NCBI RefSeq assembly: GCF_902826555.1
Contig: NZ_CADEFI010000010.1
Coordinates: 25,032 to 89,031, forward strand
Direction: 5' to 3'
DNA from: an uncultured Hyphomicrobium sp.
GTDB lineage: Bacteria; Pseudomonadota; Alphaproteobacteria; Rhizobiales; Hyphomicrobiaceae
Length of the DNA: 64,000 bases
The notes below the pieces were generated by a model. It had not been told where the DNA came from. It made no database searches and was given only the letters and a program-made list of their open reading frames with translations. The translations under genes were made by a program, and so were the position numbers. Shown piece after piece: positions 51,334 to 58,584 of this stretch. Every line of letters begins with the position of its first letter. The stretch's first letter is position 1.

Positions 51334-52356
51334 TTAGCTCTTGGAGCTGTAGATCTGGTCGAACACGCCGCCGTCCTTGAAGTGGACTTCGGTCGCCTTC
51401 GTCCAGCCACCGAACACTTCGTCGATGGTGAACAGCTTCACGGGCGAGAACTGAGCCTTGTACTTCTCAGCAGCCTTGGCATCGCGCGGGCGATAGTAAT
51501 GCTTGCCGGCGATGTCCTGGCCTTCCGGCGTGTAGAGATAGTTCAGGTAAGCCTCGGCGAGCTTGCGCGTGCCCTTCTTGTCGACAACCTTGTCAACAAC
51601 GGTGACAGACGGCTCAGCGAGGATCGACACCGTCGGCGTCACGATCTCGAACTTGTCGGGACCAAGCTCTTTGGTCGCGAGATAGGCCTCGTTCTCCCAC
51701 GAGATGAGGATGTCGCCGATGCCACGCTCGGTGAAGGTGGTGAGCGAGCCGCGAGCGCCCGAATCAAGCACCTTGGTGTTCTTGTAGATCTTGGTGACGA
51801 GATCTTTCGCCTTCTCTTCGCTGCCGCCGTCCTGCTTCAGCGCATAGCCCCAAGCAGCAAGATAGTTCCAGCGCGCGCCACCCGAGGTCTTCGGGTTCGG
51901 CGTCACGACCTCGACGCCTTCCTTGCCGAGATCAGCCCAATCCTTGATGCCCTTGGGGTTGCCCTTGCGGACGAGGAACACGATGGTCGACGTGTAGGGA
52001 GCGGAGTTGTCCGGGAGGCGCTTCTGCCAATCGGCCGGGATCAGGCTGCCCTTCGTGGCGAGCTGGTCGACGTCGCCAGCCAGCGCGAGCGTCACGACGT
52101 CTGCTTCGAGACCATCGATGACCGCGCGGGCCTGCTTGCCCGAGCCGCCGTGCGATTGCTTGATGGTGACGTCTTCGCCTGCGGTCGCCTTCCAGTGCTT
52201 GGCGAACGCAGCGTTGAACTCCTGATAAAGCTCGCGCGTCGGATCGTAGGACACGTTCAAAAGCTCGGCCGCGTAAGCCGCAGCCGAAAGACCGGCGAGG
52301 CTGACCGAAAGGCCAACCGCGAGCGCGGCGCGACGGGTGAAACGGACAATCGACAT
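51334..52356 (-). CDS. sbp: Sulfate-binding protein, copy 1
   Basis: The 340-residue periplasmic protein has a signal peptide ([20 protein letters not shown], cut near AYAA) and the sulfate-binding family signs [40 protein letters not shown] and [20 protein letters not shown]. It delivers sulfate to CysTWA. The ATG at 52356 has AGAGGA upstream; the frame is open further upstream. It has sulfur box C. Confidence 0.95.
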
Positions 52357-52446: not shown

Positions 52447-52833
52447 AACACCCTTGCCGAACATATTGGCGCATTGAATCGCGCCGCGGAGCCAAACGGA
52501 GCATAAATTTCCTCTCCTGACGGATGGCGCCATTTCGGCTTCGCGCGTTCTCGCCGATGCAAAGAAAGCCCGCGCAAACTGGGGGCTGCGGGCGGTTGCG
52601 ACGACTACCCAAGGCAGCCGCCAACGCGTTGCCGTTGATGCTGTTCACATCCGGCGCGATCGGCCCTCTCATATAACGCCGCTAATGCCAAACCGATTGA
52701 ATGCTTCTCATTTCTTGTTATTTGACCCTTGTGGCGGATCGCGGCTTGATGAGGCTGCGACGCGATCCTGCGCCGCCGCGGTGATTTCGAGTTCACTTGC
52801 GCCGCGTCATCAAACGCTAAGGAGAGCAGCCAA
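52447..52833. other. Divergent spacer between the two sulfate-binding units
   Basis: This 387-base stretch has no credible gene. It must hold the promoter for the plus-strand leader transcript. A degenerate sulfur-box-like string (GAATGCTTCTCATTTCTTG, near 52696-52714) is present, but the spacing does not match the six clear boxes. I could not place a convincing -10/-35 pair. Confidence 0.4.
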
Positions 52834-52929
52834 ATGACCTTCTCCCATCCGGCCCACGACACTTCGATATGCGAGGCTCGTTCGGCTTGTTTTGTGTCGC
52901 GCATCTCGCTTCGGTGTTGTTGCTGCTGA
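52834..52929 (+). CDS. Cys-rich leader peptide ending in four cysteines
   Basis: A 31-codon frame starts with ATG at 52834 after AAGGAGAGC, a near-perfect ribosome site, and stops with TGA at 52927-52929. It contains six cysteines; the last five codons are Arg-Cys-Cys-Cys-Cys (TGT TGT TGC TGC at 52915-52926). The rest, MTFSHPAHDTSICEA and SACFVSRISL, has no known motif. A run of codons for the end-product amino acid just before stop is the mark of attenuator leader peptides; polycysteine upstream frames that control cysteine genes are known in mycobacteria. Here it precedes a 68-residue gene and the second sulfate-binding protein. Confidence 0.8.
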   Translation: MTFSHPAHDTSICEARSACFVSRISLRCCCC

Positions 52930-52957
52930 TCGCGGGCCCCGTGCCCATCGCTGCAAC
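52919..52957 (+). promoter_or_regulatory. Hairpin whose 5' arm contains the cysteine codons
   Basis: GTTGCTGC (52919-52926) pairs with GCTGCAAC (52950-52957) in seven of eight positions, enclosing GGGC/GCCC. A ribosome stalled on the cysteine codons would open it. A second hairpin, CCGCC-GAAA-GGCGG (52983-52996), ends just before the AAAAGGA ribosome site of the next gene. The regulatory role is inferred. Confidence 0.5.
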
Positions 52958-53009
52958 CCTTCTCACAGCTTGCGAGTTGAGCCCGCCGAAAGGCGGAAAA
53001 GGACACCTC

Positions 53010-53216
53010 ATGTCAGACGCATACATCATTGAAGTCGCCGACGAGACCGCCGGCATCGTCGTTCGCCAGAACAGCGAAAAGAGCTATCGATTCCACGCCT
53101 CGCTGCCGCGCTACTATCCGCTCGACGGCAAGATTTTTTCGGCTCCGCGCGATGCCGAGCGGGCTGCACTCGCCCAGTTCGGCCGCGGCGGAAAGCAGAA
53201 AGCGAGGGCGGCGTAA
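53010..53216 (+). CDS. Small conserved-looking protein upstream of sbp copy 2
   Basis: The 68-residue protein starts with ATG at 53010 after AAAGGA and reads MSDAYIIEVADETAGIVVRQ, then SYRFHASLPRYYPLDGKIFS and a basic C-terminus PRDAERAALAQFGRGGKQKA. It has no signal or membrane helix. I do not know its family; it looks like a small soluble alpha+beta protein. Position between the cysteine leader and sbp copy 2 suggests that its translation is the step controlled by the leader, and that it has a role in sulfur metabolism or its control. Confidence 0.7.
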   Translation: MSDAYIIEVADETAGIVVRQNSEKSYRFHASLPRYYPLDGKIFSAPRDAERAALAQFGRGGKQKARAA

Positions 53217-53224
53217 CTCTCTTC

Positions 53225-53250
53225 ACCCGTCGCCACGCGTGGCGACGGGT
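53225..53250 (+). terminator. Perfect 26-base palindrome after the 68-residue gene
   Basis: The site is fully self-complementary: ACCCGTCGCCACG followed by its exact reverse complement. It begins 8 bases after the stop codon and is followed by TTCTCGTTTCTCC rather than a clean T-run. It may be a weak terminator or an attenuator ahead of sbp copy 2. Confidence 0.65.
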
Positions 53251-53351
53251 TCTCGTTTCTCCTCGCGTCACGTCCGTCACACCACGCACTGCACCTCGCA
53301 CTCCCTGGACCTCGGCGGTCACGCCATCGTTTCTGGCCGACGGTTCTCCTC

Positions 53352-53386
53352 AGGCCGGTTCGCAACAGCGAGCCGGCCTCTTTTCC
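53352..53386 (+). terminator. Terminator-like hairpin in the sbp copy 2 leader
   Basis: AGGCCGGTTCGC (53352-53363) pairs with GCGAGCCGGCCT (53368-53379), with one G-U pair, around AACA and is followed by CTTTTCC. It lies 44 bases upstream of the sbp copy 2 start codon, so transcription arriving from the leader would have to pass it. Confidence 0.7.
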
Positions 53387-53429: not shown

Positions 53430-54425
53430 ATGTCGAATTTTCGCAATCTCGTTGCCGGCCTCGGCCTTGCCGTACTGGCACCTCTCGCGGCGCATGCGGC
53501 GGAGACCACGCTTCTCAACGCGTCCTATGACGTCTCGCGCGAGCTCTACAAGGAGATCAACCCGGCTTTCGTGACGCACTGGAAGAAGGAAAAGGGCGCC
53601 GACGTTACGGTCAACCAGTCGCATGGCGGCTCGACCAAGCAGGCTCAAGCCGTAGCGAACGGCCTCGAAGCCGACGTGGTGACATTCAATCAATCCACCG
53701 ACCTCGACTTCCTTGCGGACAAAGGCGTGATCGCCAAGGATTGGAAGACCAAGTTCCCGAACGAGGCCGCTCCCTACACGACGACCACGGTCTTCATTGT
53801 GCGCAAGGGAAATCCCAAGGGCATCAAGGACTGGAGCGATCTCGTGAAGGACGGCACTTCCGTCGTCATTCCGAACCCGAAGACGTCGGGCAACGGCCGC
53901 TACTCGTATCTCGCGGCCTGGGGCTACGCCCTCGAGACCGAAAAGAGCGACGATAAGGCGAAAGAGTTCGTCGCGAAGCTGTTCGCCAACGTGCCGGTGT
54001 TCGACGGCGGCGGACGCGGCGCGACGACGACCTTCACCCAGCGCGACGTCGGCGACGTGCTCGTGACCTTCGAGAACGAGGTCGACCTCCTCAAGACCGA
54101 GTTCGGCGACAAGTTCGACGTCGTCTATCCGACGCTCAGCATCGAGGCCGCGCCGCCGGTTGGCATCGTCGAAGGTGTCGTCGCCAAGCGCGGCACTGCA
54201 GAACTGGCCAAGGGCTACCTCGACTTCCTGTATTCGCCGGAGGGCCAGAGCATCATCGCCAAGCACGGCTTCCGCCCGCGCAATGAGGCGGCACTCGCTG
54301 CTGCGAAGCTGCCGACCATCAAGACGTTCAAGGTCGAGAACGTCTTCGGATCGTGGGCCGACGCGCAGAAGAAGCACTTCGCCGACGGTGGCGTCTACGA
54401 CCAGATCACGACCAAGAGCAACTGA
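53430..54425 (+). CDS. sbp: Sulfate-binding protein, copy 2
   Basis: The 331-residue periplasmic protein has a signal peptide (VAGLGLAVLAPLAAHA) and the family signs LLNASYDVSRELYKEINPAF, NQSHGGSTKQAQAVANGLEA and [20 protein letters not shown]. It is clearly related to copy 1 but diverged along its length. It has no clear sulfur box; instead it sits behind the cysteine leader and two hairpins. CAAAGGG precedes the ATG. A strong terminator follows. Confidence 0.95.
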   Translation: MSNFRNLVAGLGLAVLAPLAAHAAETTLLNASYDVSRELYKEINPAFVTHWKKEKGADVTVNQSHGGSTKQAQAVANGLEADVVTFNQSTDLDFLADKGVIAKDWKTKFPNEAAPYTTTTVFIVRKGNPKGIKDWSDLVKDGTSVVIPNPKTSGNGRYSYLAAWGYALETEKSDDKAKEFVAKLFANVPVFDGGGRGATTTFTQRDVGDVLVTFENEVDLLKTEFGDKFDVVYPTLSIEAAPPVGIVEGVVAKRGTAELAKGYLDFLYSPEGQSIIAKHGFRPRNEAALAAAKLPTIKTFKVENVFGSWADAQKKHFADGGVYDQITTKSN

Positions 54426-54563: not shown

Positions 54564-55496
54564 ATGCAAGAGGCCCATGCCGTGAGCTTCAACATCGATC
54601 GTGTCGTCACCTCGCTCAGAAATGCCCGTAGCGTGCTTCCTCGTACCGTCGATAAAACAGGACGCGTGCTTCCACTGCCCTCGCCGCGCGCGGTTTCCGA
54701 GGCCATCTCGGATCTCACCTCATCGCTTTTCCCCCGCCGCTTCGGCGGTGCCAGAGCGAATAGCAACGAGGCCCTCGACTATTTCGTCGGCCATACGCTC
54801 GGCAGGGCGCTCGACGTGCTGCAAGGGCAAGTGATCCGCGAGCTCGCCTTCACGGCTTCGCTGTCCTCCGAAGGACTCGTGGATGCGGACCAGACATCGC
54901 GCGTCATCGTGCAGGAGTTTGCCGATTCGCTACCAGCGATTCTCGAGGTCCTCTACACCGACGTGCGCGCAGCCTACGACGGAGATCCCTCGGCAAAGAG
55001 CCAGGACGAGGTGCTTCTCAGCTTTCCGGGCGTGCGGGCCATCATCTATCACCGGCTCGCGCATGCGCTGTACAAGCTCGACCTGCCGATCATCGCGCGC
55101 ATCATTGCAGAAAGCTCGCATTCGCAGACCGGCATCGACATTCACCCCGGCGCCGAGATCGGCGGCAGCTTCTTCATCGATCATGGAACGGGCGTCGTGA
55201 TCGGTGAAACGGCGATCATCGGCGAGCGCGTGAGGCTCTATCAGGCGGTGACGCTCGGTGCCAAGCGCTTTTCGGTCGACGAAAACGGCGCGCTCGTCAA
55301 AGGCCAGCCGCGCCATCCGATCGTCGAGGACGATGTGGTCGTCTACGCGGGCGCCACCATTCTCGGGCGCGTCACGATTGGGCGCGGTTCGGTGATCGGC
55401 GGCAACGTGTGGCTGACACGCAGCGTGCCCCCCGGCAGCAACATCGTGCAGGCGCAGGCCCGCAGCGACGTGTTCGACAGCGGCGCTGGAATATAA
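54564..55496 (+). CDS. Serine O-acetyltransferase (EpsC/SrpH type)
   Basis: The 310-residue enzyme makes O-acetylserine from serine and acetyl-CoA, the first step of cysteine synthesis. An N-terminal helical domain (about 1-175) is followed by the left-handed beta-helix with IDIHPGAEIGGSFFIDHGTG, VIGETAIIGERVRLYQAVTL and RHPIVEDDVVVYAGATILG. It is of the longer EpsC/SrpH type, not E. coli CysE. The start at 54564 is used because the upstream frame would run through sulfur box G. A GTG at 54582 is another choice. SrpH accompanies the encapsulin SrpI in Synechococcus, and the shell gene here follows after 93 bases. Confidence 0.92.
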   Translation: MQEAHAVSFNIDRVVTSLRNARSVLPRTVDKTGRVLPLPSPRAVSEAISDLTSSLFPRRFGGARANSNEALDYFVGHTLGRALDVLQGQVIRELAFTASLSSEGLVDADQTSRVIVQEFADSLPAILEVLYTDVRAAYDGDPSAKSQDEVLLSFPGVRAIIYHRLAHALYKLDLPIIARIIAESSHSQTGIDIHPGAEIGGSFFIDHGTGVVIGETAIIGERVRLYQAVTLGAKRFSVDENGALVKGQPRHPIVEDDVVVYAGATILGRVTIGRGSVIGGNVWLTRSVPPGSNIVQAQARSDVFDSGAGI

Positions 55497-55589: not shown

Positions 55590-56501
55590 ATGGCAGACGA
55601 GGAGCAAACAGCATTAGGCGATGTCGCCGCAAGGCAATTGGCCAATGCCACCAAAACCGTTCCGCAAATGCAGAGCATCACCCCGCGGTGGCTCGTGCAT
55701 TTCCTGAACTGGGTTCCGGTCGAGGCTGGCATCTATCGCGTGAACCGCGTGAAGGACGAGAGCAGCGTCGAAGTCGCCTGCTCGCTGCGCGATGAGCGCG
55801 CGCTCCCCAACACCTACGTCGACTACATCGAGAACCCGCGCGAATACATGCTGTCGGCCGTCAACACCGTGCTCGACATCCATACGCGCGTCTCCGACCT
55901 CTACTCGGTGCCGCACAACCAGATCAAAGAGCAGCTCCGCCTCACGATCGAGATCATCAAGGAGCGGCAGGAAAGCGAACTCATCAACAACAAGGAGTAT
56001 GGCCTCCTTGCCAGCGCCGCATCAGCGCAGAAGATCAAGACGCGCGGTGGCGCACCGACGCCCGACGATCTCGACGAGCTGATCGCACGCGTGTGGAAAG
56101 AGCCGGCGTTCTTCCTCGCCCATCCGCTCGCCATCGCCGCCTTCGGCCGCGAGTGCACGCGTCGCGGCGTCCCGCCGCCGACGGTCAACCTGTTCGGCTC
56201 TCCGTTCCTCACCTGGCGCGGCGTTCCGCTGATCCCCTCCGACAAACTCGAAGTGAAGAGCGGAAAGACCAACATCCTGCTCCTCCGCACCGGTGAGTCG
56301 AAGCAGGGCGTCGTCGGCCTCTATCAGCCGGGGCTGCCGGGCGAGCAGAGCAAGGGTCTCTCCGTCCGCTTCATGGGCATCAACCACAAGGCAATCGCTT
56401 CTTACCTCGTTTCGCTCTACTGCTCTCTCGCAGTTCTGACGGACGATGCGCTCGGTGTTCTCGAGGGCGTCGAGGTGGGCAAGTATCATGAGTATAAGTG
56501 A
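55590..56501 (+). CDS. Family 2A encapsulin shell protein (SrpI-like)
   Basis: The 303-residue protein matches the SrpI-type encapsulins, HK97-fold proteins that assemble into protein nanocompartments. Readable family signs are [60 protein letters not shown] and [20 protein letters not shown]. It lacks the cyclic-nucleotide-binding insertion of family 2B, so it is placed in family 2A. AAGGGG lies upstream of the ATG. Its last 14 bases overlap the cysteine desulfurase gene, the known cargo of family 2A shells. Expression is expected under sulfur limitation from box G. Confidence 0.93.
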
Positions 56502-58584
56502 CTCCCCCAGCCCGAGCCCGGATCCGGCACGGCACAACCCGTCGCTCGGCGGCGCCGGAATAAGCCCGCAAGGGCTTAGTCCGGGGTACGGTTTTCCGGA
56601 CGAAGCCTTGCTGACGCGGCTGGCGAACGAGGCATTCTCGTCTCCTCCCGGCTCGCCTGCGGGCTTCCTTCCCGGCGTTCCGCCCGCTGCATCCCCGCAG
56701 GGACTGGCGCCCGACGTCTCGACGGCCAACCCGACGCGGAACAATCCGTCGCTCGGCGGCTTCGGTGCGAGCCCGCAAGGGTTTGCTCCGGGGTATGGAC
56801 TGCCGAACGAAACTTCGCTGGCACGGCTTGCAAGCGAAGCCTTCTCCTCAACGCCTGGCTTACCTGCCGGCGTATCGCCGGGCATCCCCAATGCGCCCGT
56901 CGCCGCGCCGCCGCAAGTGCTGGTGCCGGACGTTCCCCTCGCCACGCCTCCGTTGCACGGTGCCGTGCCCGGACCGGCAGGACTTTCGCTTCCTTACGAG
57001 GCGGAGCTCAAGGCGTTGCTGGGCACGCTGGCTCCGGCGCAGGAACCCGAGCACGGGATGGAGCTGGTGCCCGATGTTTCGCTCGGCGGCACGCCGCCGT
57101 CCGCGGGGACAGTGGCATCCTCTTCGCCATCTCCGCAGCCGGTCCCGCTTCCGTACGACGCGGAGCTCAAGGCCCTGCTCGGCACGATCGGCGGCGAAAC
57201 CCGCGTTGCGGATCCGACGAACGGCGGCTCGTCCCTCTACTTCCTGAAGGACGTCGGCGGCGCTTCGGCAGACCCGGGTCGCGCAAGCGGCATCGGCGTT
57301 CCGGGCGCCTCGGGGCCGGGCATCCAGTCGGAGTTCGCGTCGGCGCATCCGCCGTTCGACGTGAATGCCATCCGGCGCGATTTCCCGATCCTGTCGGAGA
57401 CTGTCAACGGACGTCCGCTCGTGTGGCTCGACAACGCGGCCACCACGCAAAAGCCGAAGGCGGTCATCGATCGCCTCGTGCACTTCTACGAGCATGAGAA
57501 CTCGAACATCCACCGTGCAGCGCATGAGCTGGCCGCGCGGTCGACGGATGCCTACGAAGGAGCGCGCCAGAAAGTCCAGCGCTTCATCAATGCGCCGTCG
57601 ATCGACGAGATCGTGTTCACGCGTGGCACGACGGAGTCGATCAACCTCGTTGCCGCGACTTTCGGGCTGAAGCACGTGAATGAGGGCGACGAAATCGTCA
57701 TCACGCACCTGGAGCATCACGCCAACATCGTACCCTGGCAGCAGCTTGCACTCGCCAAGGGCGCGAAATTGCGCGTCGCACCGGTGGATGACCGCGGCGT
57801 CGTGCTGCTCGAGGAGTATGGAAAGCTCCTCAACAGCAGGACCAAGCTCGTCGCGTTTACCCAGGTCTCGAACGCCCTCGGCACCGTCACCCCCGCCAAG
57901 CAAATGGTGGAGATGGCGAAGCACGCGGGCGCGCGGGTTCTGCTCGACGGCGCACAGTCGGTCTCGCACATGAAGGTCGACGTGCAGGAGCTCGGGCCGG
58001 ACTTCTTCGTCTTCTCCGGGCACAAGCTGTTCGGACCGACGGGAATCGGCGTGCTGTGGGGCAAGAAAGACCTGCTCAACAGCCTGCCGCCCTACCAGAC
58101 CGGCGGCAACATGATCCAGGACGTTACCTTGGAGCGGAGCATTTTCCACAATGCACCCAACCGCTTCGAGGCCGGCACCGGCAACATCGCCGACGCCGTA
58201 GGCTTGGGCGCGGCAATCGACTACGTGGAGCGGATCGGGCTCGAGAACATCGCTCACTACGAGCACAGCCTGATGGTGTACGCCACGAAGCGGCTGCTCG
58301 AGAACGTGCCGGGGATCCGGATCATCGGCACCTCTCCCGAGAAGGCGGGCGTGATCTCGCTCGTCCTCAAGGGCGTGCCGAGCGAAGAGGTTGGCGCACG
58401 GCTCAACAAGTACGGCATCGCCGTACGGTCGGGCCATCACTGCGCACAGCCGATCCTACGCCGTTTCGGACAGGAGACGACGGTCCGGCCGTCGTTCGCG
58501 TTCTACAATACGTGCGGTGAGATCGATCTCCTGGTCTCGGCGCTGCGCGACATCCAGCGTGACGCCGGGCAGTCGTATCTCTGA
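56488..58584 (+). CDS. Cysteine desulfurase cargo with long disordered N-terminal domain
   Basis: The 698-residue protein has a Pro/Gly/Ser-rich N-terminal region of about 288 residues and then a complete SufS-type desulfurase (about 289-698). Catalytic parts: [13 protein letters not shown], the PLP lysine in [17 protein letters not shown] and the active cysteine in [16 protein letters not shown]. It takes sulfur from cysteine, forming alanine and an enzyme persulfide. The N-terminal region holds two copies of a 69-residue module ([23 protein letters not shown] at 17 and 86) and two of [13 protein letters not shown] (168 and 221). In family 2A systems this region directs the enzyme into the shell. 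The ATG at 56488 overlaps the shell gene, with GAGGTGGG upstream inside its last codons. Confidence 0.94.

Follow-up and report, generated by a model that had tools for sequence, protein, structure and literature searches.

Our analysis of a 64,000-nucleotide stretch of DNA from an uncultured Hyphomicrobium sp. (hereafter, the window) indicates that a small protein of 68 residues, p68, is probably under the control of a two-stage, RNA-based regulator of the sulfur response, in which a switch resembling the SAM-II riboswitch gates the translation of a leader peptide and ribosome stalling at the cysteine codons of that leader opens p68. In the first stage, the ribosome site of the leader overlaps the 3' strand of a shortened SAM-II-type pseudoknot (52773-52826), and when the ligand, most likely S-adenosylmethionine (SAM), is plentiful, helix P2 of the pseudoknot would close and the leader would go untranslated. 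In the second stage, at low ligand, the leader would be translated and the cysteine codons near its stop would measure Cys-tRNA; a ribosome stalled at those codons would cover the leader RNA, thereby exposing the p68 ribosome site and opening expression. The ligand, the translation of the leader, the stalling and the direction of control are the parts of this scheme that we infer. The features of the leader region are as follows:

52722-52750, + strand: promoter-like TTGACC-N17-CTTGAT, identified by eye
52773-52826, + strand: shortened SAM-II-like pseudoknot, a riboswitch candidate (model R1 and covariation in relatives)
52777-52781 with 52802-52806, + strand: P1 of the SAM-II-like element
52796-52800 with 52816-52821, + strand: P2 of the SAM-II-like element
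52819-52824, + strand: leader ribosome site AAGGAG, overlapping the 3' strand of P2 (direct reading)
52834-52929, + strand: leader open reading frame (ORF) of 31 codons with an ATG start, encoding MTFSHPAHDTSICEARSACFVSRISLRCCCC and then a stop (direct reading)
52905-52909, + strand: CTCGC within the leader, with GCGAG at 52972-52976 as its complement
52915-52926, + strand: four cysteine codons, TGT TGT TGC TGC, followed by TGA (direct reading)
52972-52976, + strand: GCGAG, possible partner of 52905-52909
52983-52996, + strand: hairpin CCGCC-GAAA-GGCGG, abutting the p68 ribosome site AAAAGGA (52997-53003)

A SAM-II-like element upstream of the leader

The bases at 52777-52824 of the window read CGCGGUGAUUUCGAGUUCACUUGCGCCGCGUCAUCAAACGCUAAGGAG; a canonical SAM-II sequence from the same genome is CGUGGUGAUUUGGCCGGCCGGCUUGCAGCCACG...CGCUAAAGAGG. 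The SAM-II pocket bases listed in PMC3764141 comprise U10-12, U20, U21, G22, C23, G42, C43, U44, A45 and A46, and direct reading found all of these in the window element. Position 47 is a G, in place of A47, which is reportedly in contact with the methionine moiety of SAM. The Rfam model SAM_alpha did not match the window element at E values up to 5, and the Rfam gathering cut-off (36 bits) was not reached. Because both A47 and that cut-off were tested with these outcomes, we do not file the window element as a member of SAM-II. Model R1, which was built from 86 short elements including the window sequence itself, scored the element at 61.9 bits, and folding without pseudoknots gave it a z of +0.29. 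The 3' strand of its P2, GCUAAG, overlaps the leader ribosome site AAGGAG, so that a closed P2 would hide that site. Visual inspection of relatives showed promoter-like hexamers and spacing, similar to those at 52722-52750, 5' of their elements; a sigma-70 promoter scan found none.

Two alignments were used for comparison across relatives: A1, the 86 short elements found by pattern, and A2, a class-wide set of 79 rows found by a model that did not include P2. P1 and P2 were paired in 94.9% of cells in A1 and 97.7% in A2. Cells with two-sided changes numbered 45 in A1 versus 16.9 in shuffles, and 15 in A2 versus 1.4, and none of 500 shuffles, which ignore relatedness, reached either number. The count of pairs with two-sided changes exceeded all 500 shuffles in A2 only; in A1 it was not above them (495 of 500 reached it), and the A1 core alone had no two-sided changes. 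Three P1 pairs in A2 had two-sided changes, in 2, 3 and 3 rows, together with a fourth in a single row that may be spurious. The outer P2 pairs of A1 vary, one being CG in 42 rows, UA in 21 and AU in 3, and the other GC in 54 and AU in 12, with 16 rows unpaired in each; these outer pairs are thus missing in about 16 of the 86 rows. The P1 stem and P2 pseudoknot by which SAM-II is recognized were therefore found with two-sided changes among relatives in both alignments. Of the 79 rows of A2, 78 retain the pocket bases UUU, UUGC and GCUAA; their presence in 86 of 86 in A1 proves little because the search pattern fixed them.

Searches in both directions connected the short element with SAM-II. 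SAM_alpha matched it in eight of eight relatives of other genera (21.5-41 bits), once above the cut-off of 36; at gathering score, it matched one of 16 other loci, and at E values up to 2, it matched none of the 14 element-bearing loci among 16 given from the Hyphomicrobium group. Conversely, R1 found canonical SAM-II in all 26 loci given, representing 25 distinct places, at 17.8-30.4 bits. Of 397 genomes searched in the order, representing 141 genera, 29 from 11 genera had the short-form pattern, whereas the reversed pattern had no matches among them. The short form was also present in at least 119 stretches of named genomes. A class-wide model search detected elements in 165 of 385 genomes, canonical SAM-II being included in that count. 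From this search, 70 of the places scoring about 38 bits and more were taken, not every such place being included, and 67 were counted; for one (L218), the first match gave way to a second weak one, and neither has a leader. Sequence comparison establishes the pseudoknot in relatives and its kinship to SAM-II. Most likely, the system combines a switch that works like SAM-II with a cysteine leader in series.

Short elements without a cysteine leader were also observed across the class. These precede genes resembling sbp2 (L213, L214), cysG (L225, L253, L264), cysH (L244, L248, L266) and cysI (L232), as well as genes identified by eye as of sulfhydrylase type (L218, L227, L230) and metE type (L249). 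Several genomes have two element places (L094 and L107; L112 and L130; L126 and L151; L103 and L115; L105 and L135).

A leader with a conserved cysteine-rich end

A preliminary description of this DNA had proposed a polycysteine leader peptide, and the 31-codon frame, its ribosome site and the four cysteine codons before TGA are all where it had placed them. The CCCC of the leader is the sole run of four cysteine codons in the six frames of the 64 kb, and the leader is the sole ORF with at least three cysteines in its last four codons among the 704 short ORFs (10-70 amino acids) of the window; this uniqueness argues that the run is not due to chance.

For the survey of relatives, loci had to have at least 260 bases of downstream sequence; the 173 that did were reduced to 126 by removal of redundancy, and the leader ORF was picked in each by its ribosome site, blind to cysteine content. 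A short ORF preceded by a Shine-Dalgarno (SD) sequence was found at the leader place in 110 of the 126 loci (mean in shuffles, 27.5) and was absent from 16. At least one cysteine was present in the last ten codons of 99 of these 110 ORFs (27% in dinucleotide shuffles, with a maximum of 53% in 100 shuffles) and at least two in 75 (4.3%, maximum 17%), leaving 11 with none. Cysteine had the highest enrichment in the leader tails (6.7-fold), followed by methionine (3.0-fold); arginine was also enriched (1.7-fold). The median leader starts 51 bases 3' of the element and is 26 codons long. The rest of the peptide diverges among relatives while the cysteine-rich end is kept, and one leader tail (L068) has seven cysteines.

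These data include the features expected of a cysteine-codon attenuator, namely a conserved short ORF that has a ribosome site and, close to its end, regulatory codons, and they support a cysteine-sensing role for the leader. The preliminary description had named lack of conservation of the cysteine run in relatives as an outcome that would count against its proposal, and the survey found the run's counterpart conserved in 99 of 110 leaders versus 27% in shuffles. Its proposal of a cysteine-sensing leader is therefore supported as regards the conserved tail; what it lacked was the SAM-II-like element upstream.

The p68 family and the downstream genes

The genes around the leader, and the elements between them, are as follows:

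51334-52356, - strand: sbp copy 1, divergent (NF008022, E 2.2e-161)
53010-53216, + strand: p68 gene, 68 amino acids, the first gene 3' of the leader; no cysteine and no internal methionine
53225-53250, + strand: terminator-like hairpin 3' of the p68 gene (scan: one found, 1.3 expected by chance)
53301-53386, + strand: second attenuator-like element before sbp2, CTCCCTGGACC ... GGCCGGTTCG-CAACAG-CGAGCCGGCC-TCTTTT, identified by eye
53430-54425, + strand: sbp copy 2, sulfate-binding protein (TIGR00971, E 6.8e-124)
54579-55496, + strand: serine acetyltransferase of EpsC/CysE type, start uncertain (NF041874, E 5.3e-49)
55590-56501, + strand: family 2A encapsulin shell (NF041162, E 6.7e-163)
56446-58584, + strand: family 2A encapsulin cargo cysteine desulfurase, start uncertain (NF041166, E 1.5e-252)

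No NCBIfam or Pfam match to p68 was found at E values up to 1. Its predicted structure is a confident small alpha-beta fold without a clear structural match. Cysteine is absent from 37 of 39 representatives of the p68 homologs, and 32 of the 39 have neither cysteine nor internal methionine; one of the two cysteine-bearing representatives (L089) is an ORF run into the next gene by the calling rule. The association of p68 with the leader was evident in the 67 class-wide places, 15 of which have both p68 and a cysteine leader, two p68 alone, five the leader alone and 45 neither (Fisher 5e-9, with relatedness ignored). Three of the five places with the leader alone (L208, L211, L224) precede ABC genes resembling metN, as named by eye. 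Among the loci found by pattern, duplicates included, 109 have both, eight p68 alone, 13 the leader alone and three neither, with 15 loci that were too short set aside. The p68 family is likely part of the sulfur starvation response.

The gene order is divergent sbp1, leader, p68, sbp2, serine acetyltransferase, encapsulin shell and cysteine desulfurase cargo. All five downstream genes occur in the same order in two relatives (L180, L206), and the first four are present in a third (L106) before its stretch ends. The preliminary description proposed that the leader opens the expression of both the p68 gene and sbp copy 2. Both genes are indeed downstream of the leader, but direct leader control of sbp copy 2 is doubtful, given the terminator-like hairpin 3' of p68 and the separate attenuator-like element before sbp2. 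The latter consists of CTCCCTGGACC...GGTTCTCC, then the GGCCGGTTCG/CGAGCCGGCC hairpin and a T-rich tail. By eye, it is alike in the window copy (L003) and in L007-L010, and it is conserved in the genus group. A pattern for it matched L007-L010 and their duplicates and missed the window copy; Rfam had no match to 53301-53386, and the terminator scan did not call it.

A possible link from leader stalling to p68

The preliminary description had also placed the cysteine codons in a first hairpin and a second hairpin against the next ribosome site. The second is present (52983-52996; z -1.3 when folded alone with flanks), but the first, folded over 61 nt at -16.9 kcal/mol, is at chance level (z -0.19); a 102-nt stretch spanning the two has a z of -1.2. 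Nor did modeling bear out, in the window, the claim that stalling opens p68, as the opening cost was 3.7 kcal/mol with the leader free, with a ribosome on the cysteine codons or with one at the stop. A broader set of 30 loci in which a cysteine leader is present and the p68 start could be placed, the window among them, was modeled with a ribosome on the cysteine codons, and the cost of opening the p68 site fell by more than 0.5 kcal/mol in 12 loci and rose by more than 0.5 in five. The modeled cost fell from 21.8 to 13.4 kcal/mol in L191 and from 19.7 to 14.3 kcal/mol in L126.

The clearest anatomy for such a link is in Microvirga. In L191, the leader has TCTCCTGTCG shortly 5' of the cysteine codons, a ten-base complement of the p68 ribosome site CGACAGGAGA; L194, a Methylobacteriaceae metagenome-assembled genome, differs on both strands of this pairing. 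Of 20 Microvirga-group loci examined, ten have a p68-type ribosome site, and seven of those ten have a leader anti-SD, which in L089 consists of five bases only. At 50 loci with both a cysteine leader and a placed p68 start, which do not include the window, leader-to-SD duplexes were on average somewhat stronger than those formed by shuffled leaders (mean z -0.76), with nine of the 50 at p 0.05 or less. The duplex is strong in L126, L191 and L194 (z -4.5, -4.2 and -3.1) and weak by energy in L089, L095 and L098 (z -0.2, +0.2 and -0.4). Some of the Microvirga leader anti-SDs could link stalling to p68 opening.

For the window itself, a possible short helix between CTCGC (52905-52909) and GCGAG (52972-52976) is a lead only. 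Among eight genus-group sequences, two-sided changes in this helix were seen by eye in L009/L168 and L010/L072 (two of the eight), and its register slides two bases in L006 and L008.

Alternative explanations

The strongest alternative, which we consider rather unlikely, is transcription attenuation without a structure switch, in which a stalled ribosome protects the growing transcript from Rho at a Rho-dependent stop in the leader-p68 gap, and the SAM-II-like element, through its effect on leader translation, influences Rho indirectly. The window scan found no terminator-like site between the leader and p68, the gap is without structure common to the clades, and Rho control has been proposed for actinobacterial/mycobacterial cysteine leaders (PMC1262725), all of which favors this explanation; the Microvirga anti-SD with its two-sided change, however, points to translation control there.

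Less probable again is that the leader alone matters and that the pseudoknot of the Hyphomicrobium group is a decayed SAM-II relic or, with A47 changed to G, a binder of another ligand. Position 47 is A in 54 of the 86 A1 elements, G in 28 (the window included) and T in 4, and SAM_alpha matches neither the window element nor the 14 Hyphomicrobium-group loci, which favors this reading. The change is coupled to a second position, however, since all 23 elements with an A preceding CTTGC have G47, whereas the 61 elements with G there have A47 in 54, T in 4 and G in 3. In addition, the element core is nearly invariant within the Hyphomicrobium group, which favors a maintained function.

It is improbable that the riboswitch alone matters and that the cysteine tail is a side effect of RNA conservation in a stretch, TGTTGTTG, that pairs elsewhere. 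The tail DNA, GTGTTGTTG, is invariant in eight of eight genus-group sequences, and leader tails prefer TGT over TGC (154 to 81, versus 19 to 92 in 45 window ORFs), both of which favor this reading. Across clades, however, both the DNA and the place of the cysteine codons vary: the genus group has CCCC and CRCC, Methylobacterium CCRR and RCRR, and Kaistia CRCRRNS, and MCMPGCC also occurs. What persists is cysteine, together with an SD-preceded open frame. In addition, among 20 canonical SAM-II loci, 19 of them placeable by pattern, a leader-type ORF was found in three of the 19 and cysteine in none of the three. A chance short ORF with a chance cysteine run has next to no probability given the conservation of the leader, its association with p68 and the uniqueness of the run in the window.

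Comparison with known systems

The two-stage regulator that we favor resembles several known systems in its parts. Like SAM-II (RF00521, SAM_alpha; PMC1273637), the element has a single P1 stem with a pseudoknot P2, the loop GAUUU, CUUGC and CGCUAA, and it is associated with sulfur amino acid genes of Alphaproteobacteria. It differs in having one base fewer between CUUGC and P1 and shorter loops, in falling below the Rfam cut-off in seven of eight relatives and being unmatched in the window, in carrying G or U instead of A at position 47 (32 of 86 elements), and in preceding, here, a cysteine-codon leader ORF. The SAM-II of Sinorhizobium meliloti metA (PMC9373788) likewise has an SD inside the riboswitch with the translated start further downstream, and it controls translation at a distance. 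That SD, however, serves metA from AUG2, and the paper's text nowhere uses the word cysteine. SAM-II domains joined to a second control element are also known, the partner there being another SAM riboswitch rather than a leader peptide.

Leaderless polycysteine ORFs of mycobacteria were reportedly described by Canestrari in 2020. Mycobacterial polycysteine ORFs and actinobacterial cys leader peptides (PMC1262725) share with our leader a short ORF with cysteine codons near the stop, 5' of sulfur genes, whereas the ORF described here is SD-led, lies 3' of a SAM-II-like element and belongs to Alphaproteobacteria. A leaderless start is spoken against by the AAGGAG nine bases before the leader ATG and by the conserved element 5' of it. 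Closer in taxonomy is the uORFC-8-2 motif before cysS in Rhodobacterales (PMC8632094), an alphaproteobacterial upstream ORF with tandem cysteine codons. There, the motif has an intrinsic terminator, the gene is cysS and UGC is dominant, and a SAM-II-like element is not mentioned in the parts of the paper considered. The SrpI/family 2A encapsulin with its cysteine desulfurase, upregulated in sulfur starvation in Synechococcus (PMC8049743), corresponds to the shell and cargo genes of this cluster; the word riboswitch is absent from the main text of that paper.

Significance

The arrangement joins two known types of sensor in one leader, and its logic, whether a riboswitch gates an attenuator, is testable with a short RNA. 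The relatives of SAM-II described here are mostly missed by standard annotation, as seven of eight are under the cut-off and that of the window is unmatched, and they precede sulfate-binding, MetN-like, cysG-like, cysH-like and cysI-like genes. They also lead to p68, an unnamed family of small proteins with almost no cysteine or methionine. Tentatively, and with slightly less than an even chance in our estimation, the arrangement may be a widespread alphaproteobacterial two-input gate in which a SAM-II-type riboswitch regulates the translation of a leader that senses Cys-tRNA, and not a gene, so that p68 would be made only when SAM and cysteine are both short; the A47G change may shift the ligand in the Hyphomicrobium group. 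The recurrence of this two-part arrangement in many related bacteria, and its place here upstream of a sulfur-uptake and sulfur-storage cluster, suggests a two-input switch for sulfur shortage.
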